Origin: a bacterium
Lineage (GTDB): Bacteria > Electryoneota > RPQS01
DNA length: 64,000 nucleotides
Direction of reading: 5' to 3'
Assembly (NCBI GenBank): GCA_023382385.1
Contig: JAHDVH010000005.1
Location: forward strand, 1 to 64,000
Shown here: positions 156 to 18,415 of the stretch, one piece after another
Position numbering within the stretch: position 1 is the stretch's first letter
Layout of the letters: every line of letters starts with the position of its first letter
Notes under the pieces: model-generated
Told to the model about the DNA's origin: nothing
Seen by the model: the letters and a program-made list of their open reading frames with translations, nothing else
The model's database searches: none
Position numbers and translations under genes: made by a program

Positions 156-262
156 ACTGTTTACGACAAAACCACTGCGTGGTTGATCAAGCGCGGCCTG
201 CGGTTTGCAGTTAGCGCATGTCTCGAATATCAAGCTACCGGCATGGAACCGGAAAGGAACGA

Positions 263-799
263 ATGATCATGGCACGATGGACATTCCTGGCAATTCTGAT
301 TTGCTTCGCAACTCTGCAGAGCGCTGCTTACGCACAGGGCTTTAACATGGCGTTTCAGCATTTTGAACCCGCCTCGCCGTTGACTACAACGTGCGGCGGC
401 AACATAGGTATTCCCGATGGAACGGTGATCAAGATATTCCAGGACGTGGACAACGATGGACCAGATCCGGAAGATCCCCAGCCGGTCGTGTGTACTGACC
501 CGCCGGATTGCGTGACGCCCTTTGATGCGGTCAACTTCAACGAATTCACATTCAACGGCGTCTACTTCGAACTCGGACCGGGTTACTTTGTAACAGAAAC
601 CCTGCTGACATGCTCGGCTACCATCCCCGCAAATGCTCGCTACTACCTGCGGATTTACGAACCGGATGGAGTTACGGTCTTGTGGACCAGTTCGGTTGCT
701 ACGGCGGTGGTGGGCTATCAGGAGGTCAATTATACTGATGCCGACTGGACCTGCGGTGCCTCAGGCCCGCGTTGCACAGTGATTGACGAATCTGAGTAG
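263..799 (+). CDS. Secreted protein of unknown function
   Basis: I chose the ATG at 263 because GGAAAGGA lies a few bases upstream and the protein then begins directly with a signal peptide (MIMARWTFLAILICFATLQS, cleavage near AYAQ). The mature part, about 155 residues, has acidic stretches (DVDNDGPDPEDPQP), six or more Cys residues that could form disulphides, and a YYLRIYEPDG motif near the C-terminus. The protein at 4083-4706 carries matching elements (an Asp/Pro-rich stretch, YYLRLWEGGD, DVEWTFG against DADWTCG), so the two probably belong to one family flanking the UshA-like cluster. No enzymatic motif is visible. Confidence 0.75.
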   Translation: MIMARWTFLAILICFATLQSAAYAQGFNMAFQHFEPASPLTTTCGGNIGIPDGTVIKIFQDVDNDGPDPEDPQPVVCTDPPDCVTPFDAVNFNEFTFNGVYFELGPGYFVTETLLTCSATIPANARYYLRIYEPDGVTVLWTSSVATAVVGYQEVNYTDADWTCGASGPRCTVIDESE

Positions 800-902: not shown

Positions 903-1964
903 ATGCGCAAACTAACGATCTTGCTGTCCGCACTCCTGACTGCGGTGCTCAGCGGTCTTCTGGTCCCCGGGTGTTCTGTCGCCCCGGCCGAAGGCAAGCT
1001 GCAAGTCATGTATAGCGGCAATATCCGGGGCAATGTGGCCCCGTGTGGTTGAAAGGACAAAAAAGGTGGGGTGGCCCGGTGGGCTGCCTTCGTACAAAGA
1101 CATCAGGATCCGACAGCCAATTGGCTGACGGTTGATGCTGGCAACTTTGTAGACCGTGCAGGTGCCAAGGGCGGCTGCTCGACGAAGTGCCAATTCATGG
1201 TCACGAGTTATGAGGACCTCCATTACGACGTCCTGAACATTGCTCGTCAGGAAGTCTCGATGGGCTACGAGACATTGGTTTCGCTGCGCGACACGACCAA
1301 GACGACCAAGTACGTCTCTGCCAATCTGCTCGATGTGAAGACCGGCAAGCCGCTCTTTGATCCGTATGTGATCAAGGATTACGGCAATATGCGTATTGGC
1401 GTCATCGGACTCTTGCGTGATGCGGATTTTCCGGCCACCTCATCACTGGTGGATACCACAGTGATGAAAGTCACGCCGACTACCGAGGCCGCGCAGAAAT
1501 ATCTGCCGGATCTGATGCGCAAGACCGACGCGGTTATTCTGCTGTGTGAATTGCCGACCGATGATATCGATTCGCTGGTCAAGCAATTCCCGGACATTGA
1601 CATCGTGATTTCCACCGGCGCTCTGCGCACGGGAGAAACTACGACGACTATTGGTAAGAAGACGCGTCTCCTCGGAACTGGATCGTCCGGCTACAACGGA
1701 CACTACGCGACGCTTGAATTTAAGCCTGCGTGGGGCGACTCTGTTGCTTTCGCGGACTTCAAAGATGCGTTGCTGGATTCTTATGACATGCCCGGCGAAT
1801 GGTCCGAAAGACTTGCCAAATTTGAAGGCAAGTCCGGAGCTACCATTCAGCCCAGCCAGAGCGGCGTGAAGGTTTCACCCGGCAATGCGCCGTCGCTTTC
1901 GCCATCCAGCAAGGATCCCGCTTCAACGACCAAAGACCCTCATGTGGGGCACAATCACGGATAG
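903..1964 (+). CDS. UshA-like lipoprotein, probable selenoprotein (UGA at 1050-1052)
   Basis: Read as one 353-residue protein with Sec at the UGA at 1050-1052. The frame before the UGA (signal peptide, lipobox VPGC, GNIRGNVAPCG) and the frame after it (KDKKGGVARWAAFVQRH...) are the same frame. Together they align end to end with the neighbouring paralogue at 2033, which has Cys (PCGC) where this gene has UGA. The fold resembles the N-terminal metallophosphatase domain of UshA/5'-nucleotidases: VDAGNF in place of a GD motif, a SANL strand, IGVIGL and a ISTG strand. The metal ligands expected in DxH, GD, GNHE and GHxH motifs are all absent, so phosphatase activity is unlikely. The CGU motif suggests a redox role in the periplasm or at the membrane. 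The alternative is a genuine stop or pseudogene, but the intact frame of more than 300 codons after the UGA and the hairpin right behind it argue against this. A terminator-like hairpin separates it from the next paralogue. Confidence 0.82.
1050..1088 (+). promoter_or_regulatory. Candidate bacterial SECIS element
   Basis: Directly after the UGA (1050-1052) the mRNA can fold an 8-bp stem, 1070-1077 with 1081-1088 (two pairs are G-U), closed by the apical loop GGU at 1078-1080. Twenty-five nucleotides separate the UGA from the loop. Known bacterial SECIS elements place a G-rich apical loop roughly 16-37 nt behind the UGA. The UGA at 3295 has the same layout and the same spacing, while the Cys paralogue at 2033 does not form this hairpin at the matching position. 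Confidence 0.75.
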
Positions 1965-1981
1965 GGTTCTCTCCCGTTAGG

Positions 1982-2008
1982 AAAAGAGCGGCGAGAGGCC
2001 GCTCTTTT
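1982..2008 (+). terminator. Terminator or attenuator between UshA-like paralogues
   Basis: An 11-bp perfect stem (AAAAGAGCGGC paired with GCCGCTCTTTT) with loop GAGAG is followed by CTTTAC. It lies 18 nt behind the first selenoprotein gene and 24 nt before the start of the second paralogue, so it may tune expression of the downstream copies. Confidence 0.75.
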
Positions 2009-2032
2009 CTTTACAATAACAGGAGATGAACG

Positions 2033-3103
2033 ATGCTACGTGGTACAGGTGGGTTCCGATTTACGTTGCGCTTTCTGTTGCTTCTTATACTGGGGAGCAC
2101 GGGTCTTTCACTGCTAAGCGGCGGTTGCACCCCCGCGCCTGCTGAAGGCAAGCTTCAAGTGATGTTTACAGGGAACATCCGCGGGAACGTGTCACCGTGC
2201 GGCTGTAAGGTAAGCAAAGGCGGGGTGGCGCGGCTGGCGTCATTCGTCCAGCGACACACAGACCCGACGGCCAATTGGCTGATGGTGGATGCAGGGAATT
2301 TCGTGGATCGTGCCGGTGCCAAAGGCGGATGCTCGGACAAGTGTCAATTCCTTGTGACGAGTTACGAAGGCCTGAAGTACGATGTTCTGAATGTTGCCCG
2401 TCAGGAGATTTCGATGGGCTACGAAACACTGGTTGCGATGCGTGACACGGTGAAGTCCGTTGACTTTGTCTCGGCAAACCTCGTGGATGCGGCTACCAAT
2501 CGTCCGTTGTTCAAGCCGTATGTGATCAAAGACTACGGCAATATGAAAGTCGGTATCATTGGCTTGGTGCGGGATGCTGACTTCCCTGCAACGTCTTCGC
2601 TGATAGACACAACCAGGTTTCGTGTGACCAGCACAAAGGCGGCAGCGGACCGTTACTTACCGGAAGTTGCAAAGAAAGCCAACGCGATCGTCTTACTCTG
2701 CGAACTCTCATCGGACGATTTGGATACACTCATTAGTTCGCATCCCGAAATTGACTTTGTCATTTCCACCGGCGCATTGCGAACAGGCGAGACCATGACG
2801 ACCATCGGTAAGACACGCGTTGTTGGAACCGGTTCGTCAGGGTATAATGGCCACTACGCGATGATCGAGTTCAACCCCTCTTGGGGCGACTCCGCCGGCT
2901 ACGTTGACTTCAAAGACGCCTTGACGGATGTTTACGAGCAGGAAGGCGAATGGTCAACCAAGCTTGCGGCTTTCGAAGAGCGCACAGGCACAGGCAAACG
3001 CCAGCAAAATGCAGGTTCGACGCCTATGACTGGAGCAGGGATTCCCAACACACTTTCGCCGGACGCTCTGCAGAAGAAGGCGACAATAAGTTCTCACGGT
3101 TAA
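2033..3103 (+). CDS. UshA-like lipoprotein, Cys-containing paralogue
   Basis: 356 residues; the start is supported by CAGGAGATG upstream. The signal peptide ends at the lipobox LSGGC, so this is a lipoprotein. The core is very similar to the protein at 903-1964 (GNIRGNVSPCGCKVSKGGVAR, VDAGNFVDRAGAKGGCS, SMGYETLV, IKDYGNM). The third residue of the CGC motif is Cys (TGT) where the two flanking paralogues use UGA. The metal-binding residues of true 5'-nucleotidases are missing (GN for GD, ARQE for GNHE, TGAL for the GHxH region). Two further Cys (GGCSxKC) are shared with the first paralogue only, and another sits in VLLCEL. It acts outside the cytoplasm; its substrate is unknown. It serves as an internal control for the selenocysteine call. 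Confidence 0.88.
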   Translation: MLRGTGGFRFTLRFLLLLILGSTGLSLLSGGCTPAPAEGKLQVMFTGNIRGNVSPCGCKVSKGGVARLASFVQRHTDPTANWLMVDAGNFVDRAGAKGGCSDKCQFLVTSYEGLKYDVLNVARQEISMGYETLVAMRDTVKSVDFVSANLVDAATNRPLFKPYVIKDYGNMKVGIIGLVRDADFPATSSLIDTTRFRVTSTKAAADRYLPEVAKKANAIVLLCELSSDDLDTLISSHPEIDFVISTGALRTGETMTTIGKTRVVGTGSSGYNGHYAMIEFNPSWGDSAGYVDFKDALTDVYEQEGEWSTKLAAFEERTGTGKRQQNAGSTPMTGAGIPNTLSPDALQKKATISSHG

Positions 3104-3120
3104 CTCAAGTTCATAGCAGA

Positions 3121-4056
3121 ATGAATCAACGGATTCGGCCCATGCTGAAGGGCGGGGCGGTGACGGGTATGTTGTTGCTGGTCGGGCTGCTTGGCCTTTC
3201 GCTCGGTCATGCGGCGGACAAGCAGGCTTCGAAAGCTCAGAAAGCGCGCGTCATCTACTCAGGGCAGTTTAAAGGCCACGTCGAACCCTGCGGTTGAGGC
3301 TCGCGTAAAGGCGGGCTGGCCCGGAGGGCTACCTTTATTCATAACAGCCGCTCTGACACTCTCGCGATTGTCACGGTGGATGCTGGAAATTTCGCGACTC
3401 TTGCGATCGACAAGGAGTTCGAGCCGCGACGTGACCTTTTGTTCTCTTTTTACAAGGAACAAAACTACGACGCGATAACCTTGGGACCGCAGGAAATGAA
3501 CTCTTCGCTGTCGGTTTGGAAGCAGGCGAGCCAGGATGGGTTGCCCATCGTTTGCGCAAACCTGTTCGAAGGTAAACGCTCCAAGAAGCCGGTCTTCGAC
3601 GCATACCGTTGGACCGAGCGTGCGGGTGTGCGCATGGCTGTCGTCGGGCTTATCATGGAGCGATCTGTTGCGAACAGCCCCGACTCGGCGGAAGTGCGCG
3701 TCGAATCACCCTATAAGATCCAGAAGCTGATGCGGAAAGTGTTGAAGCGTTCCGATTACGTCACCCTGATTGGCGACTTTACGGTCAAGGAAGCTGACTC
3801 CCTCGCTCAGACCTATCCGGAAGTTAATCTGATTGTTTCATCGAATCCGACGCTTTCGAATTACTTCACCGTCGGCACGACTGTCGTCGCACCTTGCGGA
3901 GCAAAAGGATACTACGGTGAGTACATCGAGACTTCCGTGGCGCGCAGTGACTCGGCCAGATACGAGAAGGTACGCGAGACTCTCGATACCAAGATCCCCG
4001 CGGACACGCTTTATGAGAAGCGAGTTTCGCAGTCGGGAATCCTTCCGCGCAAGTAG
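3121..4056 (+). CDS. UshA-like secreted protein, probable selenoprotein (UGA at 3295-3297)
   Basis: 311 residues when the UGA at 3295-3297 is read as Sec. It starts 17 nt behind the preceding paralogue and is probably cotranscribed with it. The N-terminus is a signal peptide without a lipobox (MLLLVGLLGLSLGHA), unlike the other two copies. The frame before the UGA ends VIYSGQFKGHVEPCG, and the same frame continues GSRKGGLARRATFIH and VDAGNF. The CGU motif lies exactly where the paralogue at 2033 has CGC. The rest is more diverged: GPQEMNSS in place of the GNHE region, VVGLIMERS, LIVSSNP. A SECIS-like hairpin follows at the same distance as in the first copy. The extra Cys pair GGCSxKC of the other two is absent here. 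Confidence 0.8.
3295..3331 (+). promoter_or_regulatory. Candidate bacterial SECIS element
   Basis: Six paired bases, 3317-3322 with 3326-3331 (TGGCCC against GGGCTA, one G-U), close an apical loop GGA at 3323-3325. The stem can be extended by three more pairs beyond a C-C mismatch. Exactly 25 nt lie between the UGA and the loop, the same as for the UGA at 1050. Confidence 0.72.
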
Positions 4057-4082: not shown

Positions 4083-4706
4083 ATGATGGCAAACGGAAAC
4101 ATGATGTTGCGTATTGCGACGACTATCCTGCTGGTGTTGGTGACCCTGAACAGCGTGATGGCGCGCGAAGTTATCAAGGGCCGCGAAGTCTACTTTGATA
4201 CGGAAAACACCGAAGAGCGCGACAACGAAATGGGGAATCCGTTCACCATTCTTGTCTTCTTCTTTAACAACAAACCCGTGTTGGATCGCACCGGAGCTCC
4301 CCACGATCATGGACATTTGATTCAAGTCATAGCAGATGGTGGAAACGGGATTCAGGACCCGCCCAATCCCGACGGAACTCCTGGCGGCGATGACTCGCTG
4401 GCCTGGGGCAACTTCAATCAACTCTACCTCGGCGGCCACGAATATCCCCCGCAAATGGAGGGGAAAACGGGTCTGTTCAGTTCCGGCAAGTACTTCATTC
4501 CATACGTGGATGATGGGGTATATTATTTGCGTTTATGGGAAGGTGGAGATTCGAAAAAAGCTCCGTACTATCAGGACTCAAGTGAATATGTTTCGACCAT
4601 TGGTGATCAGGGCGGGGGAATGCTGCGCGTATCCTCTCGTGTCTACAAATCCCCCGAAGATGTGGAATGGACGTTTGGACCGGCTAAGCCGCGACCCAAG
4701 AAATAG
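4083..4706 (+). CDS. Secreted protein of unknown function
   Basis: 207 residues with an N-terminal signal peptide (MMLRIATTILLVLVTLNSVM, cleavage after MA). The exact start among ATG 4083, 4086, 4101 and 4104 is uncertain. The mature domain has an Asp/Gly/Pro-rich segment (VIADGGNGIQDPPNPDG followed by TPGGDDS), then GKYFIPYVDDGVYYLRLWEG and YYQDSSEY. This looks like a family of secreted beta-sandwich proteins in FCB bacteria, and it resembles the protein at 263-799. It follows the third UshA-like gene by 26 nt and probably belongs to the same transcript. No catalytic motif is seen. Confidence 0.75.
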   Translation: MMANGNMMLRIATTILLVLVTLNSVMAREVIKGREVYFDTENTEERDNEMGNPFTILVFFFNNKPVLDRTGAPHDHGHLIQVIADGGNGIQDPPNPDGTPGGDDSLAWGNFNQLYLGGHEYPPQMEGKTGLFSSGKYFIPYVDDGVYYLRLWEGGDSKKAPYYQDSSEYVSTIGDQGGGMLRVSSRVYKSPEDVEWTFGPAKPRPKK

Positions 4707-4802: not shown

Positions 4803-5414
4803 GTGTTAAGGCTCTTGGTGACATTAGCTTGTCTTACGCCCGTCGCTTTCGCCAGTTGGGTGCAAATCGGCTTTCTCACGAACGAATCCCCGCAATCGGT
4901 GTCACTGCAAGTCGAATCCCTACCTGAAGCCCGCCAGTTTGAACTTCGGGAAGCTGGGGACGCACAGCGGTCTTGCTGGTTGAGTCCGCCGATTTTCTTT
5001 GAGGGGCGCGGCGAGCAGGATTGCATCGTAGCTTGGAAGCAGGCCGGCGTGGCACATGAACGACGCTTTACGCTGCGTGCTGATTCCCCGATGCAACTGC
5101 TCTTGGTGGAGGAAACGCATGCTGACCTCAAGCGCGCGGTTGAACAGCCCTTTGATGTCCAACTGGAATTGGCTCCCAATCCGTTCAACGTCATGGCAAC
5201 TCTGTCATTAACTCTGCCCGAGGCCGCCCATGCCGACTTAAAGGTCTATGACGTGCTGGGCCGCCGGGTTTCGGATCTCTTTGACCAGCCTCTTTCCGCA
5301 GGCAGTCACCGCTGGACTATTGACGGCTCGACATGGGCCAGCGGGACCTATTTCCTCTCTTATCGCCTCTCGCCCGGCCCGTCCGGGGTCCGCCGCCTGC
5401 TACTGCTGAAGTAG
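4803..5414 (+). CDS. Secreted protein with C-terminal sorting (FlgD-like/T9SS) domain
   Basis: 203 residues from a GTG start preceded by GGGGGACC. A short signal peptide (LLVTLACLTPVAFA) precedes about 100 residues with no recognised motif. The last 85 residues are the sorting domain of FCB-group secreted proteins: LAPNPFNVMATLSLTLPE, LKVYDVLGRRV, SGTYFLSY and a hydrophobic LLLLK end. Proteins with this domain are exported and attached to, or released from, the cell surface, probably by a type IX-like system; no secretion genes are in this window. The small mature part suggests a structural or ligand-binding role rather than an enzyme. Confidence 0.75.
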   Translation: MLRLLVTLACLTPVAFASWVQIGFLTNESPQSVSLQVESLPEARQFELREAGDAQRSCWLSPPIFFEGRGEQDCIVAWKQAGVAHERRFTLRADSPMQLLLVEETHADLKRAVEQPFDVQLELAPNPFNVMATLSLTLPEAAHADLKVYDVLGRRVSDLFDQPLSAGSHRWTIDGSTWASGTYFLSYRLSPGPSGVRRLLLLK

Positions 5415-5478: not shown

Positions 5479-6108
5479 ATGTCCATTCTGATCGGCATCG
5501 CCGGTGGCTCCGCCAGCGGCAAGACGACGCTGGCTCACGGTCTCATGCACGCAATGGGTCCGGATCGCGTGCTCTGGCTCCTGCAGGACAGCTACTACCG
5601 CGAATTACGTGGTATGAGCTTTGACGAGCGTTGCCTGTATAACTTCGATCATCCCAGCGCCTTCGAAACCGATTTGCTCTGCCGCCACTTGGATGAGCTG
5701 CTTGCGGGCAGACCCATCGAACTACCCGAATACGATTACTGCACACACATGCGGAAGCCGGCAGGCCAACATGTCGAACCGCGCGAAATTATCCTGCTCG
5801 ATGGAATCCTCGTCCTGCACGAACCTGATTTGCGGAAGCGAATGAGTCTGAAAGTGTTCGTCGAGTGTCCAGCTGATGTGAGACTGGCGCGCCGCATCGA
5901 GCGCGACGTCGTTTTCCGTGCTCGCGCAAAGCACGACGTCATTCGCCAATTCAACGACCACGTCGAACCCATGCACCGGCAGTTCGTCGAGCCTTCCAAG
6001 TCGTTCGCCGACATCGTAATTCCCTTTGGTGCCGAGATACCTTCGGTAACACAGATGGTCGCGGAGCGAATTCAATCTTCTGCACAGGCGGACGCGCAAC
6101 GTTCCTGA
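5479..6108 (+). CDS. udk: Uridine kinase
   Basis: 209 residues. A P-loop is seen at GIAGGSASGKTT (about residues 6-17), followed by LLQDSYY and YNFDHPSAF, which are typical of uridine/cytidine kinases, then PEYDY, the Walker B-like IILLDGIL and RLARRIERD. The enzyme phosphorylates uridine and cytidine to UMP and CMP in the cytoplasm. The usual ERGR lid is ERDVVFRARAK here, a mild divergence. It opens a salvage operon: tdk follows after 20 nt and nupC 3 nt later, so import and phosphorylation of nucleosides are probably coexpressed. Confidence 0.92.
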   Translation: MSILIGIAGGSASGKTTLAHGLMHAMGPDRVLWLLQDSYYRELRGMSFDERCLYNFDHPSAFETDLLCRHLDELLAGRPIELPEYDYCTHMRKPAGQHVEPREIILLDGILVLHEPDLRKRMSLKVFVECPADVRLARRIERDVVFRARAKHDVIRQFNDHVEPMHRQFVEPSKSFADIVIPFGAEIPSVTQMVAERIQSSAQADAQRS

Positions 6109-6128
6109 AAACTCTCCTTTGTTGATCC

Positions 6129-6740
6129 ATGCACCACTTTCCCCACAATACCGGCTGGATTGAAGTTATCTGCGGACCGATGTTCTCCGGCAAGACGGAG
6201 GAATTGATTCGCCGGTTGGTGCGCGCTCAGATTGCCAAACTGCGCGTTGAGATATTCAAGCCGCTGATTGACAACCGATACTCTCGGGACGAAATCGTCA
6301 GTCATTCGCGGCTGACAATCCCATCGCAGCTGGTCAAGTCACCGTGGGAGATCTTTGAACTCGCGCAGGATGCCGACGTGATCGGCATTGACGAAGCGCA
6401 ATTCCTCGGGAACGAATTGATCGAAGTCGTGCAGAAGCTCGCCGATCAGAACAAACGAGTCATCTGCGCGGGGCTGGATACCGATTATCGCGGCGTTCCG
6501 TTCGATCCGATTCCTCAACTGCTCGCAATCGCCGAATACATAGATAAGACGCTCGCCATTTGTGTGCGCTGCGGAAATCCCGCCAAGCACACACAGCGCG
6601 TGGTCGCGTCACGGGAGCTCGTCTTAGTCGGTGCGCAAGACGCCTACGAACCGCGCTGCCGCAATTGTTTTGTCCCTCCCGATCCTGCTCAAGAAACGGC
6701 TGTGCAGGAGCAACTCCCTCTCTCCTCAAAGCAAGGATAA
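6129..6740 (+). CDS. tdk: Thymidine kinase
   Basis: 203 residues of the bacterial type II thymidine kinase family. Walker A is [15 protein letters not shown] (about residues 15-29) and Walker B is IGIDEAQFL, in which the Glu is the likely catalytic base. Two Cys pairs, CVRC and CRNC, form the structural zinc site near the C-terminus. It makes dTMP from thymidine. The length fits the family. It lies between udk and nupC on the same strand with short gaps. Confidence 0.94.
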
Positions 6741-6743
6741 CCT

Positions 6744-7994
6744 TTGGAACGTCTCCAATCCTTGATCGCGATTCCGATTCTGCTTGGTCTCGCGTGGCTG
6801 CTGTCATCCGACCGCAAAAATTTCCCGTGGCGTGTGGTGATTTGGGGTACGGGCCTGCAAATCGTCTTTGCGGTCTTGATTCTCTGGACGCCGTGGGGCC
6901 GCAATGTGTTCAGCGCGTTAGGCGACGGTGTGTCGAAATTTCTCGGATATACACTCGAAGGATCATCGTTCCTGTTCGGCAACATGGTCAAACAGGAGTA
7001 TCAGGAAACTTTCGGATTCCAGTTCGCTTTTGCGATCCTGCCGACCATCATTTTCTTCGGATCGTTCATGGGCATCCTCTATCACTTCGGCATCGTGCAA
7101 CGTGTGGTGCGTGGACTGGCATGGGTGATGACGCGATCGATGGGAACGTCCGGAGCGGAATCTCTTTCGGCGGCGGGCAATATCTTCTTGGGCCAGACAG
7201 AGTCACCCTTGTTGATTCGACCCTTCCTGAAAACGGTCACGCGCAGTGAACTGAATGCCATCATGGTTGGCGGGTTCGCCACCGTTGCGGGCGGCGTCAT
7301 GGCGGGGTATATTCTGCTCGGAGTTCCGGCAAAACATCTGCTCGCGGCGTCGGTCATGGCCGCGCCCGGCGCTTTGATCTTTGCCAAAATCTTTCTTCCG
7401 GAGCGCGAACAGCCGGCAACGGCAGGGCAGCTCCACATGCCCGAGATGCCCAAGCAGGCGAATGTTATTGATGCTGCGGCAAGCGGTGCGCGCGACGGAC
7501 TCGGCCTCGCGGTGAACGTCGGGGCCATGCTGCTCGCATTCATTGCTCTCATTGCTGTCTTAAACGCTATCTTGGGGCTGATTTCCGGCTGGTTTGCAGG
7601 AGTAGGGATGATGTGGTTCCCGGAAAGTTTGCGCGAGATCTTCTCCTACGTGCTCTGGCCGATTGGTTTCATTCTCGGCGTGCCTGTCTCGGAGTGCAAG
7701 GACTTCGCCTATCTTATCGGCACGAAGATCTCGATCAATGAGTTTGTGGCCTATGTCGAGTTATCAAACTTGATGAAGGAAGGCGTGCTGTCTCCCCGCA
7801 CGATCATGCTCGCGTCATATGCGCTGTGCGGATTCGCGAATTTCTCCTCAATCGGCATCCAAATCGGCGGTATCGGAAGCCTTGCTCCGGAGCGACGCAA
7901 GGATCTTGCGGAATTGGGCATGCGGGCGATGATAGCCGGAACGATGGTCAGCCTGCAGACGGCGGCCATTGCCGGAGTGCTGTCGGCAAGCTGA
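6744..7994 (+). CDS. nupC: NupC-type concentrative nucleoside transporter
   Basis: 416 residues from a TTG start 3 nt behind tdk. Multiple membrane segments are evident. The family signatures are present: FGFQFAFAILPTIIFF, the LGQTESPLLI helix that carries substrate-binding residues, GGFATVAGGVMAGY, and SYALCGFANFSSIGIQIGG near the C-terminus. Transporters of this CNT family import nucleosides with H+ or Na+ across the inner membrane. The upstream kinases would trap the imported uridine and thymidine, which gives this three-gene operon a coherent job. Confidence 0.93.
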   Translation: MERLQSLIAIPILLGLAWLLSSDRKNFPWRVVIWGTGLQIVFAVLILWTPWGRNVFSALGDGVSKFLGYTLEGSSFLFGNMVKQEYQETFGFQFAFAILPTIIFFGSFMGILYHFGIVQRVVRGLAWVMTRSMGTSGAESLSAAGNIFLGQTESPLLIRPFLKTVTRSELNAIMVGGFATVAGGVMAGYILLGVPAKHLLAASVMAAPGALIFAKIFLPEREQPATAGQLHMPEMPKQANVIDAAASGARDGLGLAVNVGAMLLAFIALIAVLNAILGLISGWFAGVGMMWFPESLREIFSYVLWPIGFILGVPVSECKDFAYLIGTKISINEFVAYVELSNLMKEGVLSPRTIMLASYALCGFANFSSIGIQIGGIGSLAPERRKDLAELGMRAMIAGTMVSLQTAAIAGVLSAS

Positions 7995-8003
7995 CATGAA
8001 AAA

Positions 8004-8022
8004 GTCCGCGCAAAGCGCGGAC
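8004..8022. terminator. Bidirectional terminator between nupC and sulP
   Basis: A perfect 8-bp stem (GTCCGCGC/GCGCGGAC, loop AAA) has A-rich sequence on the left and TTCTCTTT on the right, so it can end transcripts from both convergent genes. Confidence 0.8.
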
Positions 8023-8050
8023 TTCTCTTTCGCACACCCGATAATTAAAC

Positions 8051-9751
8051 TCAGCGGCTCTCCTTGTGCGGCAGGTGTTTGCCGTGCGGGTGTTCGGGAA
8101 GACTCTCGATGATCTCACGTGCCTTTACGACGGCGTCGTCAAACGTCGGCGGTAGATTCTCAGCACCGAACAGTTCGATAAGCCCCGCACGCTCCAGCGC
8201 ATCGCGCGGCTGTTTGTTCAGACCGCTGATAAGAAATGCCGTTCCGTGCTTTCGCGAGTCGTTGAAGACTTCGATCAGTGCCTGCATACCTGAACTATCA
8301 ATGACGGGCACTTTACGCATCCGGATAATTCTGACCTTCGGCGCGCGCGCGACGATGTTCATCGCTTCTCGAAACTTGTAGACTGCGCCGAAGAAGAACG
8401 GTCCGTTGATTTCATAGACTTGCACTCCAGCTGGAATGGCAGAGCGGTCCAGAACGTCCAACTCCTCTGTGGGGGTCGGTTCGCGCATCTCGCTTGTAAA
8501 GATTTCTATTTCAGTGGCGCCGGACATCCGCTTCATGAACAGGAAAACTGCCATCAGCATCCCCACCTCGATCGCGACGGTTAGATCGAGGATGACGGTC
8601 AGCGAAAGCGTTGAGAGCAGCACCGCCACGTCACTCTTCGGTCCGCGCAGCATGGCGCGAAACGAGTGCCACTCGAACATATTGTAGGCGACGACGACCA
8701 GAATTGCCGCCAACGCTGCCAGCGGAATCATCTTTGCAAGTCCGCCGAACACGAGCATCAGCAGCAAGAGCGCAAGAGCGTGCACAATGCCTGCAACCGG
8801 CGTGCGGCCTCCGTTGCGCACGTTGGTCGCCGTCCGCGCAATTGCTCCCGTCACAGGCAATCCGCCGAACACGGAGCTGCCGATGTTCGCGACACCCTGT
8901 GCAACCAGCTCCATATTAGAGCGGTGCCGCCCGCCCACCATGCCGTCTGCAACGACTGCCGAAAGCAGAGATTCGATGGCCACCAGCACGGCAATCGTCA
9001 TCGCCGGCGGAACCAGCCTGCGCACTTCTGCGAACGTCAGGTCAGGCACCTGCGGCATCGGCAGCATCGAGGGGATGTCTCCAAACCGCGAACCGATCGT
9101 TTCGACGGGCAGGTGCAGCAACTGAGCGGCGGCCGTGGCGCCGACAAGCACAACTAACGAGCCAGGAATCGTCCGCATCAGTCTTGGCCACACCAGCAGC
9201 ACAACAACTGATGCAACTCCAATCACTACGGCAGAGGGGTTGATCGTGTCCGCAGCGCGAGCCAGTGAGAAAAGCTTCTCAATAAAGTTCGCAGTTTGTC
9301 CTTCCAGCGTCATCCCAGTGAAGTCGGCGATCTGCGAAACGAAGATGATCATGGCGATTCCGCTGGTGAAGCCTGTCACCACCGGCAGCGGGATAAACTT
9401 GATGACGGAACCGAGCTTGAAACGCCCGAATAAGATCAGCAGGATTCCGGCAAGAAACGTCGAGACGATTAGTCCGTCCAATCCGTACTCTGCAACGATG
9501 CTGAACACGATGACGACGAATGCTCCGGCCGGACCCCCGATTTGCACACGGCTTCCGCCCAGAAACGACACAATGAATCCGCCAATGACACCCGCAATCA
9601 GCCCCCGTTCGGGCGATACGCCCGAGGCGATGGCGAAGGCGATGCACAACGGCAACGCAACGACGCCGACGATGAGTCCGGCTACAAAGTCCCTGCTGAA
9701 TTGCTGCCGGTCGTAGTTCCGGAGAGTGGTGAAAAGTTTAGGCTTCAACAT
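8051..9751 (-). CDS. SulP-family inorganic anion transporter
   Basis: 566 residues. The N-terminal 400 residues contain 10-12 hydrophobic helices with the SulP signatures DFVAGLIVGVVALPLCIAFA, GGSRVQIGGPAGAFVV and VTGFTSGIAMII. The C-terminal 120 residues are a STAS domain (VQVYEINGPFFFGAVYKF, VPVIDSSGMQALIEVF). Family members carry sulphate, bicarbonate or dicarboxylates; the substrate cannot be told here, and no carbonic anhydrase or sulphate genes are adjacent. The start codon lies one base from the start of the divergent nuclease gene, so each promoter must lie within the other gene. Confidence 0.92.
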   Translation of the reverse strand: MLKPKLFTTLRNYDRQQFSRDFVAGLIVGVVALPLCIAFAIASGVSPERGLIAGVIGGFIVSFLGGSRVQIGGPAGAFVVIVFSIVAEYGLDGLIVSTFLAGILLILFGRFKLGSVIKFIPLPVVTGFTSGIAMIIFVSQIADFTGMTLEGQTANFIEKLFSLARAADTINPSAVVIGVASVVVLLVWPRLMRTIPGSLVVLVGATAAAQLLHLPVETIGSRFGDIPSMLPMPQVPDLTFAEVRRLVPPAMTIAVLVAIESLLSAVVADGMVGGRHRSNMELVAQGVANIGSSVFGGLPVTGAIARTATNVRNGGRTPVAGIVHALALLLLMLVFGGLAKMIPLAALAAILVVVAYNMFEWHSFRAMLRGPKSDVAVLLSTLSLTVILDLTVAIEVGMLMAVFLFMKRMSGATEIEIFTSEMREPTPTEELDVLDRSAIPAGVQVYEINGPFFFGAVYKFREAMNIVARAPKVRIIRMRKVPVIDSSGMQALIEVFNDSRKHGTAFLISGLNKQPRDALERAGLIELFGAENLPPTFDDAVVKAREIIESLPEHPHGKHLPHKESR

Positions 9752-9752
9752 A

Positions 9753-10310
9753 ATGCCGCAAGATACAAAATCCCAAACGACAATTCAATACACTCGCGCC
9801 TATCTGTCGCTGTTTCTGGTTGCCGCTCTCTGGCTTGGCTGTCGGCACACTGCGCCGGACACGATCCCTCCGTTTCGCGAAACACCCGTTCAGAAATCAG
9901 ACATCGTGGTTGAAGACGGGGACACTTTCCTCTGGAAAACTCAGCGCATACGCATGCTGGGCATTGACTGTGCCGAAATCAGCTCGCCTTTCCATAACGG
10001 CAATCAGGAGCCTTGGGGTTCATTAGCCACCGAGTTCCTGCGCGAACAGATTGCAAAAGCGAATAAACTCTCGATCATCCGTATTGAACAGCCCGACCGC
10101 TATGGTCGCTGGCTGGCCTATCTGTTTGCCGACGGCGAGAATGTCAATGCACGCGTCATCAGTGCGGGCTTGGCATATGAAACGGTTTCGCAGTATGGAA
10201 AACAAGGTCTGGACCGTTATGCCGAGCAATGTCTTGCTGCTTCACGGACCGCGCCAAAACCGTCGTTTGAACCTCCACACGAATTCAGAAAACGTAATCG
10301 CAAGAATTAA
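9753..10310 (+). CDS. Thermonuclease-family (SNase) lipoprotein
   Basis: 185 residues from the ATG at 9753; an upstream GTG at 9726 is possible but would overlap sulP. A hydrophobic stretch ends in the lipobox LWLGC, predicting a lipid-anchored, extracytoplasmic protein. The staphylococcal-nuclease fold shows DGDTFLWKTQRIRMLGIDCAE, with Arg and Glu matching the catalytic R35 and E43, and DRYGRWLAYLFADG, with Arg matching R87. It likely cleaves DNA or RNA outside the cytoplasm. The purine nucleoside phosphorylase gene begins 3 nt downstream, and together with nupC, udk and tdk this points to scavenging of nucleic acids. Confidence 0.88.
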   Translation: MPQDTKSQTTIQYTRAYLSLFLVAALWLGCRHTAPDTIPPFRETPVQKSDIVVEDGDTFLWKTQRIRMLGIDCAEISSPFHNGNQEPWGSLATEFLREQIAKANKLSIIRIEQPDRYGRWLAYLFADGENVNARVISAGLAYETVSQYGKQGLDRYAEQCLAASRTAPKPSFEPPHEFRKRNRKN

Positions 10311-10313
10311 CGT

Positions 10314-11156
10314 ATGCGTAACCGTCAGTTCGCGCGCGAGCGCATGTTGCAGTTCGAGACAGATATTGAGAAGATGGCAGGGAAACTAAATGGCTCTGCG
10401 GATGTCGCCGTTATCCTCGGATCGGGACTCGGCGGCTTCGCCGATGAACTTGCAGAGCCTCGCTCCTTTCTGACGAGCGAACTCTCGGGTTATCCCGTCT
10501 CCACAGTTGCGGGTCATGCGGGTCGCATCGTGTTCGGGAAGATCGGCCGTGTCAAAGTGATGGCCTTTCAGGGACGCGTGCACATGTATGAAGGCTACTC
10601 TCCGGAACAGGTCGCAGTGCCCGTGCGCCTGGCCTTTGCCAAAGGCGCGCGCACGCTGCTTGTAACCAATGCATCGGGAGGCGTGAGCCGCAGATTTCGC
10701 GCAGGCGATTTGATGCTCATTGATGACCACATCAATCTGCAGTTCCGCAATCCGTTACGCGGACCGCAGGCCGTGAACGAATCCAGATGGCCGGACATGT
10801 GCCACTGCTATGATCCCGAACTGAAGCTGCTTGCTGAACGCGTTGCTCAGGAACAGAAGATAGAATTGAAGCGTGGAACTCTTGCGGCGCTGCTCGGCCC
10901 CACCTATGAGACTCCTGCCGAAGTGCAGATGCTCGCTCGGCTGGGTGCGGATGGTGTCTGTATGTCGACCGTCCCGGAAGTCATTGCCGCAAGCGCGTTG
11001 GGAATGCGAGTTCTCGGTATCTCGTGTGTGACCAACGCCGCCGCGGGCGGCGGAGAAAAACTCGCTCATGAAGATGTCATCTTGACTGCAAACCGCGCCA
11101 AAGAGAAATTTCAGGAATTGTTGCGCGGAGTGCTTATCAGTCTGAAGCCTGAATGA
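10314..11156 (+). CDS. Purine nucleoside phosphorylase
   Basis: 280 residues of the trimeric (type I, PunA/XapA-like) family. Motifs: VILGSGLGGFAD (phosphate-binding loop), AGHAGRIVFGK, GRVHMYEGY, TNASGGVS, GPTYETPAEVQML, MSTVPEVI and CVTNAAAG (base-binding region). It splits purine (deoxy)nucleosides with phosphate into base and (deoxy)ribose-1-phosphate. It directly follows the nuclease lipoprotein, and its stop overlaps the start of the next gene (ATGA), so three genes form one unit. Confidence 0.93.
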   Translation: MRNRQFARERMLQFETDIEKMAGKLNGSADVAVILGSGLGGFADELAEPRSFLTSELSGYPVSTVAGHAGRIVFGKIGRVKVMAFQGRVHMYEGYSPEQVAVPVRLAFAKGARTLLVTNASGGVSRRFRAGDLMLIDDHINLQFRNPLRGPQAVNESRWPDMCHCYDPELKLLAERVAQEQKIELKRGTLAALLGPTYETPAEVQMLARLGADGVCMSTVPEVIAASALGMRVLGISCVTNAAAGGGEKLAHEDVILTANRAKEKFQELLRGVLISLKPE

Positions 11157-16446: not shown

Positions 16447-16473
16447 TTGCTATGAGGTGTGTTATCTTATAAT
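16447..16473 (+). promoter_or_regulatory. Possible promoter of the cytochrome gene
   Basis: A perfect TATAAT at 16468-16473 lies 15 bp behind TTGCTA at 16447-16452. The spacer is short, so this is tentative. Confidence 0.35.
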
Positions 16474-16507
16474 GCCCTTCCTTCACACCTCGACGCGAGG
16501 CGGTCCC

Positions 16508-18415
16508 ATGAAATCAAGGCTACTCTTTCTTCCCGCAGCATTGCTGCTCTTCACGCTGTCTGCTGCAGCCGTCCCCACAACCTTGAACGACTTCTTCCTG
16601 CCCGGCTCTCAACCGAATCAATCGGGAAACTTCCGTCCGCCAAGTCAGTGCGATAACTGTCACGCCGGATTCGGATTGAACATCGAACAGCATTTCAATT
16701 GGAGCGGCAGCATGATGGCGCAGGCTGCGCGCGATCCGCTCTACTTTGCAACGGTGGACATTGCCAATCAGGATGCTCCCAACTCCGGAGACCTGTGCAT
16801 TCGTTGTCACTCTCCGGTTGGCTGGCTCGGCGGGCACTCTGTGCCGACGGATGGTTCGGCTCTTTCGGGCACTGACTTGGATGGTGTGCAATGTCACTAC
16901 TGTCACAAATCCGTTCAACCTTCGCCAATCGGCGTGAACCCGTGGCCTGCCGATCCGATTTACACATCCACGACCTACGGGCCGGACCAGACGTATCTGC
17001 AAACGCTGACGCACATTCCCCCCACCACCGCCAACGGCATGTATGTTGTGAGCAACGTGGATGAGCGGCGCGGCCCGATCGCTGCGGCAGGTTCACCGCA
17101 CGCCTTTCTTTATTCGCCGTTTCATCTTTCATCGGGCATCTGTGGAACCTGTCATGACGTGAGCAACCCCGTGTTCACAAAGAACGCGTTCGGTCAATAC
17201 GTTCCCAATGCCTTCAATGCTCCGGCTCCGAGCTTCGACTTGCGGACGATGTTTCCGGTCGAGCGCACCTACAGCGAGTGGCTCGTCAGTGACTACAACT
17301 CGGTGACCGGAGTCTATGCTCCCGAATTCGGCACGGACAACGGCTATGTGTCCACCTGTCAGGATTGTCACATGCCGCGTTACGACGGTCGCGCCTGCAG
17401 TCAAAACGTTCCGTCGCGGGACAATCTCGGCGTGCATGATTTCACCGGTGGCAATACCATTGTCGGCAGATGGATCAAAACGCTCTTTCCCGGAGTGACG
17501 CCAAACGCCGCGCTCGATTCCGCTGTTGTGCGAGCCCGTCGCACACTGCAGAAGGCCGCAACGATTGCGATTGATGCCGAAGTGAGTGGCGGAATGGTGC
17601 ACGCCAGCGTGACGGTGACGAACCAGACCGGACACAAACTTCCTTCAGGCTATCCCGAAGGCCGCAGAATCTGGATCAATCTGAAAGCCTTCAACGCTCA
17701 GCAGCAACTGATCTTTGAAAGCGGTGCCTATAATCCCGCAACAGCGGTCTTGACTCACGACGCGCAGCTGAAGGTCTATGAAGTGCATCCCGGAATCTCC
17801 CCCGGATTGGCCGGCGTCGTCGGGCATCCGGCGGGTCCGTCCTTTCATTTCGTGTTGAACGACACGATCTACATGGACAATCGCATTCCGCCGCGCGGTG
17901 CGACCAACGCCGAGTTAACGAACGTCCAGTCTCCCGTCGTGGACTATGTCTATCCAGACGGTCAATACTGGGATGTCACCGAATACGAGTTGCCGATTGA
18001 GACGGACAGCATCGTTGCGACGCTCTTCTATCAGACGACGAGCAAGGAGTATGTCGAATTCCTGCGCGACAACAACTTCACGAGCAATCGCGGCAATACG
18101 CTATATGCTCTTTGGGACTCGACCGGAAAGTCTGCTCCTGAGTTAATGGAACGGGAATTTTTCCGTGTGATTCATCCCTTGCAACCGGTGGACGACCTGA
18201 CGATTTGGTTTGAAGAGGAGTCTGAAGACGAATTGCATTTCCGATTGAATTGGACTCCCGTTGCAGGCGCGACCAGCTACGAGATTCTGAGCATGGCTTC
18301 GCCGGCCGATGAGACTGGAACACTCATCGGTTCAACTCAGTCGCCTCCCTATGAGTTGTCCGAGTCATCGGCTATCACAGAGGTCAGATACTATCGCGTG
18401 CGCGCCGTGAACTGA
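16508..18415 (+). CDS. Secreted pentahaem cytochrome c
   Basis: 635 residues from the ATG at 16508, which begins directly with a signal peptide (MKSRLLFLPAALLLFTLSAA). Five CXXCH haem c sites are visible: CDNCH (about residue 48), CIRCH (97), CHYCH (129), CGTCH (about 215) and CQDCH (about 283). The second half has no haem site but a beta-rich domain, and the last 80 residues resemble a fibronectin type III domain (LNWTPVAGATSYEILSM). The spacing and the long haem-free C-terminus resemble multihaem proteins of FCB and Acidobacteria genomes that handle extracytoplasmic electrons. Its partner is not evident; no cytochrome maturation genes are adjacent. Confidence 0.88.
   Translation: MKSRLLFLPAALLLFTLSAAAVPTTLNDFFLPGSQPNQSGNFRPPSQCDNCHAGFGLNIEQHFNWSGSMMAQAARDPLYFATVDIANQDAPNSGDLCIRCHSPVGWLGGHSVPTDGSALSGTDLDGVQCHYCHKSVQPSPIGVNPWPADPIYTSTTYGPDQTYLQTLTHIPPTTANGMYVVSNVDERRGPIAAAGSPHAFLYSPFHLSSGICGTCHDVSNPVFTKNAFGQYVPNAFNAPAPSFDLRTMFPVERTYSEWLVSDYNSVTGVYAPEFGTDNGYVSTCQDCHMPRYDGRACSQNVPSRDNLGVHDFTGGNTIVGRWIKTLFPGVTPNAALDSAVVRARRTLQKAATIAIDAEVSGGMVHASVTVTNQTGHKLPSGYPEGRRIWINLKAFNAQQQLIFESGAYNPATAVLTHDAQLKVYEVHPGISPGLAGVVGHPAGPSFHFVLNDTIYMDNRIPPRGATNAELTNVQSPVVDYVYPDGQYWDVTEYELPIETDSIVATLFYQTTSKEYVEFLRDNNFTSNRGNTLYALWDSTGKSAPELMEREFFRVIHPLQPVDDLTIWFEEESEDELHFRLNWTPVAGATSYEILSMASPADETGTLIGSTQSPPYELSESSAITEVRYYRVRAVN

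Follow-up and report, generated by a model that had tools for sequence, protein, structure and literature searches.

Two predicted UshA-like selenoproteins flank a cysteine paralogue in a tandem cluster of secreted proteins

Three tandem UshA-like genes (A, B and C) were located on the forward strand of the window, the 64,000-nucleotide stretch of contig JAHDVH010000005.1 (assembly GCA_023382385.1; GTDB lineage Bacteria; Electryoneota; RPQS01) that was analysed in this study, and comparative sequence analysis indicates that the in-frame UGA codons of genes A and C are almost certainly decoded as selenocysteine (Sec) by SelB and tRNA-Sec through a SECIS hairpin in the coding region 25 nt downstream. 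Gene A (903..1964) is open throughout when TGA is read as U and would encode a selenoprotein of 353 residues with a Cys-Gly-Sec motif and, by inspection, a lipoprotein-like N-terminal signal (LVPGC). Its Sec-UGA codon (1050..1052) is followed by 303 further codons. Gene B (2033..3103) encodes a Cys paralogue (PCGC) of 356 residues that is 64% identical to A, grouped with the A lineage in the tree and has TGT (2204..2206) at the Sec position. Gene C (3121..4056), for which UGA homologues were found in 10 genomes, would encode the second selenoprotein, of 311 residues with Cys-Gly-Sec and, by inspection, a secretion signal without a lipobox; 252 further codons follow its Sec-UGA codon (3295..3297). 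The two UGA codons, the TGT of the middle paralogue and the long frames beyond both UGAs had been claimed in a preliminary description of this DNA; the codons were all re-read in the sequence, with their positions determined by script, and the long frames are conserved across the order.

Gene A with the UGA was present in 11 and gene C with the UGA in 10 of the 13 genomes of the order, in each case in the same alignment column and with a conserved downstream frame, and the remaining two genomes (G002 and G012) contained more distant Cys forms only. Homologues elsewhere in the phylum, outside the order, had no in-frame TGA. An exchange of UGA and Cys between genomes, which the preliminary description had proposed to look for, was observed as UGA aligned with Cys in homologues.

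The genome containing the window (2.9 Mb, 98% complete) encodes all four components of the Sec machinery that the preliminary description had named for a search (selA, selB, selC and selD). SelB scored 335 bits, above its cut-off, and SelA 500 bits, tRNA-Sec exceeded the Rfam gathering score and was also called by ARAGORN as tRNA-SeC with anticodon tca (UCA), and selD contains one in-frame TGA (G000:C3:99826-100740, L016). The selD gene of most genomes of the order is a selenoprotein gene too, with an in-frame UGA and a downstream hairpin with a GGU or GGA loop as in A and C, although the selD loop starts 20 nt after the UGA rather than 25 nt. SelA was above its cut-off in 34 of the 39 genomes of the phylum. 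Most metagenome-assembled genomes of candidate phylum KSB1 have been reported to have selA, selB and selD (PMC9012183), and a scan of genome contigs returned only five related loci, which all came from metagenome assemblies and lacked a close taxonomic assignment; one of the contigs is labelled KSB1. A global reassignment of UGA was ruled out as TGA terminates 15 of the 41 long open reading frames in the window, in keeping with the earlier argument from genes ending in UGA, and a sequencing error at the UGA was ruled out by its recurrence in separately assembled genomes.

The hairpin of gene A (1068..1090, forward strand) has a 10-bp stem and a GGU loop at 1078-1080, and that of gene C (3317..3331, forward strand) has a 6-bp stem and a GGA loop at 3323-3325. 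Both stems are perfect and both loops lie exactly 25 nt behind the UGA as originally described. The published bacterial SECIS model specifies a loop of 3-9 nt with G in the first two loop positions, a stem of 4-16 bp, a spacing of 16-37 nt and a minimum free energy of -7.5 kcal/mol or lower, and the two hairpins agree with it in their 3-nt GGN loops, 10- and 6-bp stems and 25-nt spacing. Folding of the 43 nt after the UGA gave -14.8 kcal/mol for A and -19.1 kcal/mol for C, where another hairpin further upstream contributes to the value. An Rfam search of the window returned no SECIS or other RNA at gathering scores, and matches with E up to 10 were weak and at chance level. Single-sequence folding z-scores of the hairpins were unimpressive (-0.8 to -1.8), and comparison between genomes and codon choice were therefore used as evidence.

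The hairpin was found in 21 of 21 UGA copies from 11 genomes, with stems of 6-10 bp, and at the equivalent codons it occurred in 24/24 UGA homologues versus 1/18 Cys homologues among the sequences examined. In a synonymous-recoding test, only approximately 0.9% of recodings of A and 2.4% of those of C matched the native stem around a GG loop. The codon for Arg-59 was CGG in all 21 copies, against a CGG usage of 14.7% of Arg codons, and the next Arg was encoded by AGG, with a usage of 3.9%, in eight of ten C-type copies; this codon choice provides independent support for the SECIS. In the ungapped alignment 94% of the cells were paired and 13 had changed on both sides. None of 500 shuffles reached the observed paired percentage or covariation score, and sliding the partners lowered pairing to 41-65%. 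This covariation is support rather than proof, as the double changes fall at two pairs only and the sequences are related. Gene B has a 0-bp stem around the equivalent GG loop, although it can fold a different hairpin, so the statement that the middle copy lacks the hairpin stands for that position; as a rule for all Cys copies it does not hold since the Cys copy of a related genome (G008) retains one. Taken together, the Sec machinery, the conserved UGA at a Cys column, the SECIS with covarying pairs and the absence of UGA reassignment make the Sec reading well supported, and the selenocysteine signature claimed at the outset, consisting of Cys/UGA homologues and a SECIS, is strongly upheld.

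No Pfam match was obtained for A, B or C, and profile HMM, sequence and structure searches all pointed to the metallophosphatase domain found in periplasmic nucleotidases. The predicted structure (pLDDT 74, pTM 0.73) matched nucleotidase metallophosphatase domains with E of approximately 1e-17 and probability 1.0, and the Sec loop (residues 44-53) was modelled with low confidence. The 5'-nucleotidase of the same genome, which has Metallophos and 5_nucleotid_C domains, keeps all of the metal ligands (D,H,D,N,H,H,H,H). Read against this protein, A and B have N,R,N,R,Q,E,G,L in the eight ligand columns and C has Q,K,N,P,Q,D,S,P; the last two columns are less surely aligned than the others. Across 20 A and C copies the second Asp was the sole surviving ligand, in two copies. 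The C-terminal, substrate-binding 5_nucleotid_C domain was absent from A, B and C. The three proteins thus have the metallophosphatase fold in common with Escherichia coli UshA and the CpdB-type 2',3'-cyclic nucleotide phosphodiesterase/3'-nucleotidase but lack their metal ligands and C-terminal substrate domain, and bear a Sec/Cys motif instead. Cys-Gly-Sec directly follows the degenerate first ligand loop and would lie in the loop that succeeds strand 1, where the former active site opens. With almost all metal ligands of the ancestral phosphoesterase replaced, A, B and C probably do not act as 5'-nucleotidases, and the label 'UshA-like' probably misleads on function. A fourth paralogue encoded in this genome (G000:C1:502235-503101; L066, 4152-5162, minus strand) has a GCGC motif without a UGA and without metal ligands, and has likely counterparts across the order.

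The preliminary description knew of no established UshA-like selenoprotein family, which was mistaken, as the family has been catalogued since at least 2008 and is covered by NCBIfam models NF041198 and NF049981. The 2008 GOS selenoproteome listed 76 UshA-like sequences (COG0737, motif CxU) (PMC2398784), among which there may be short forms. UshA-like selenoproteins were also catalogued in a 2022 review (PMC9312934), and a 2026 review assigned UshA-like to NF041198 with NF049981 as a second family (PMC13188914). A, B and C resemble NF041198 (UshA_like_PCGU) in their degenerate nucleotidase-type N-terminal domain with its PCG[U/C] motif (CxU) and SECIS-encoding GGLAR segment. They differ from it in their length (311-356 aa), in the absence of the C-terminal cytochrome c554-like region (profile positions ~340-519) and in the loss of more metal ligands. 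Scores of 151.8 (A), 135.2 (B) and 111.4 bits (C) were below the curated cut-off of 275, and the matches ended near profile position 285. Since only the N-terminal half is matched, below the cut-off, while the relatives that pass it carry cytochrome c554-type haem domains, the window proteins are placed next to NF041198 as a short branch without haem and outside that equivalog. The N-terminal region is also related to that of NF049981, although A, B and C scored only 32.9, 29.1 and 39.2 bits against a cut-off of 140 and have CxU rather than CxxU spacing.

In a 386-genome sample a single in-frame TGA occurred in many other families, some of them as tandem pairs (G233 and G174). Reading of five of these loci revealed four CXXCH haem motifs in the PCGU proteins of G233, G172 and G324 and, in G174, a protein with the motif PCPTU. 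The G233 locus, from outside the phylum (L137, 2529-5768), encodes tandem full-length UshA-like selenoproteins with four CXXCH motifs each, and tandem Sec duplication has thus also occurred elsewhere.

The likeliest role that we propose for A and C, judged by the CxU motif and by the haem domain fused in relatives, is that of thiol/selenol oxidoreductases of the periplasm or cell surface, in which a metallophosphoesterase fold without metal ligands now bears Cys-Gly-Sec. They would exchange electrons with a partner; full-length relatives have it fused as a four-haem cytochrome c554 domain, and in the window organism it would be a separate protein. The case for this role and partner is evenly poised, and electron exchange with separate cytochromes is plausible. 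A competing reading by analogy, which we regard as unlikely though worth consideration, is that Cys-Gly-Sec handles persulfide, polysulfide or thiosulfate in the manner in which SoxB acts on the swinging-arm Cys of SoxY, rather than serving plain electron transfer. The SoxB thiosulfohydrolase belongs to the same fold family and was among the weak sequence matches (E 3.9e-10 for A), and the structural matches included the SoxB-SoxYZ disulfide complex. However, SoxB was no closer than the nucleotidases, the metal site that it needs is lost in the much shorter window proteins, and the conserved cluster showed neither soxYZ nor any other gene for sulfur oxidation.

Cys copies were present in the window's genome (G000), in G008, where the copy is split over two frames, and in G009. 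In the tree the B copies grouped with the A lineage of their own genome and at least three label changes were forced, with the caveats that many forks are weak, that the labelling took in a short G004 fragment and that gene conversion is possible. That fragment (L054, 2-499), at a contig start, is near-identical to the G004 gene A and represents another recent A duplicate, whose Sec/Cys position falls beyond the contig end. The G008 Cys copy (L057, 3723-4762) is a close duplicate of the G008 gene A in which the SECIS-like hairpin is intact and the frame breaks mid-gene, and is either a recent, decaying Sec-to-Cys duplicate or an assembly error. These patterns suggest that gene B derives from a duplication of A within its own lineage, with replacement of Sec by Cys and decay of the SECIS, and Cys copies probably have at least three separate origins. 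The reverse history, with an ancestral Cys paralogue B and a gain of Sec by A and C within the lineage, accords with the predominance of Cys forms elsewhere in the phylum. We consider it improbable in view of the B copies of three genomes that branch inside or beside their own A genes, even if several weak forks and gene conversion could blur this pattern, and of the complete SECIS in the G008 Cys copy, as expected of a recent Sec-to-Cys change. As a duplicate of A, gene B would plausibly be a selenium-independent version.

The cluster is bordered on the forward strand by a secreted protein of 193 aa directly upstream of A (218..799; tblastn, synteny), a secreted protein of 207 aa directly downstream of C (4083..4706; synteny) and, at the cluster end, a protein with a type IX secretion sorting tail (4803..5414; PF18962, TIGR04183, synteny). 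In nearly all contigs that were long enough the 193-aa protein preceded A and the 207-aa protein followed C, with the sorting-tail protein next. The gaps between genes in the window cluster are 17-103 nt, a spacing compatible with an operon. The 193-aa and 207-aa proteins had no Pfam or NCBIfam match, were weakly related to each other (profile comparison probability 87%) and may represent a new family. For the 207-aa protein, the AlphaFold model (pLDDT 48) was too poor for use. No partner cytochrome was found within the conserved cluster, where the neighbours are secreted proteins without a family match. A large protein encoded elsewhere in the window (16457-18415) had weak multihaem cytochrome matches (cytochrome c554 or MtrC-like).

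Behind the cluster, the window (5479-11156) encodes a uridine kinase, a thymidine kinase, a nucleoside transporter and a phosphorylase-family protein, and in several relatives a uridine kinase lies behind the cluster too. A link to nucleotides is conceivable given the uridine kinase in several genomes and the nucleoside-salvage genes of the window. These downstream genes, together with the common fold and clear homology, would suit residual metallophosphoesterases in which A, B and C still act as 5'-nucleotidases or cyclic phosphodiesterases and Sec is accessory or binds metal, but the replaced ligand columns and the missing substrate-binding domain make such an activity very doubtful. It is scarcely credible that the UGA is a genuine or leaky stop and that A and C are pseudogenes or translated merely as short fragments, for although UGA ends ordinary genes elsewhere in this genome, the same codon recurs in gene A (11 genomes, downstream identity 55-77%) and in gene C (10 genomes), the UGA copies show SECIS-type codon constraint and the Sec machinery is complete.

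Our overall proposal, which on balance we favour, is that A and C are two exported selenoproteins of a haem-free branch with a thiol/selenol redox role and that B is a duplicate of A. A more tentative extension, which we hold with less than even confidence, is that a dead metallophosphoesterase fold became a secreted redox module of two selenoproteins (A and C) with recurrent, lineage-specific and selenium-independent Cys backups derived from A by loss first of Sec and afterwards of the SECIS, the G008 copy, which has Cys and yet retains the hairpin, being caught midway. With the metal site gone, the nucleotidase name of the family looks wrong for the window proteins, and automatic annotation is likely to split A and C at the UGA since the short forms score under the cut-offs of both curated models. 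An established yet functionally uncharacterised selenoprotein family would thereby be extended to a short form below both cut-offs, and the tandem Sec/Cys/Sec arrangement, together with separate Sec-to-Cys duplications at differing stages of SECIS decay, would offer a natural series for studying Sec loss.
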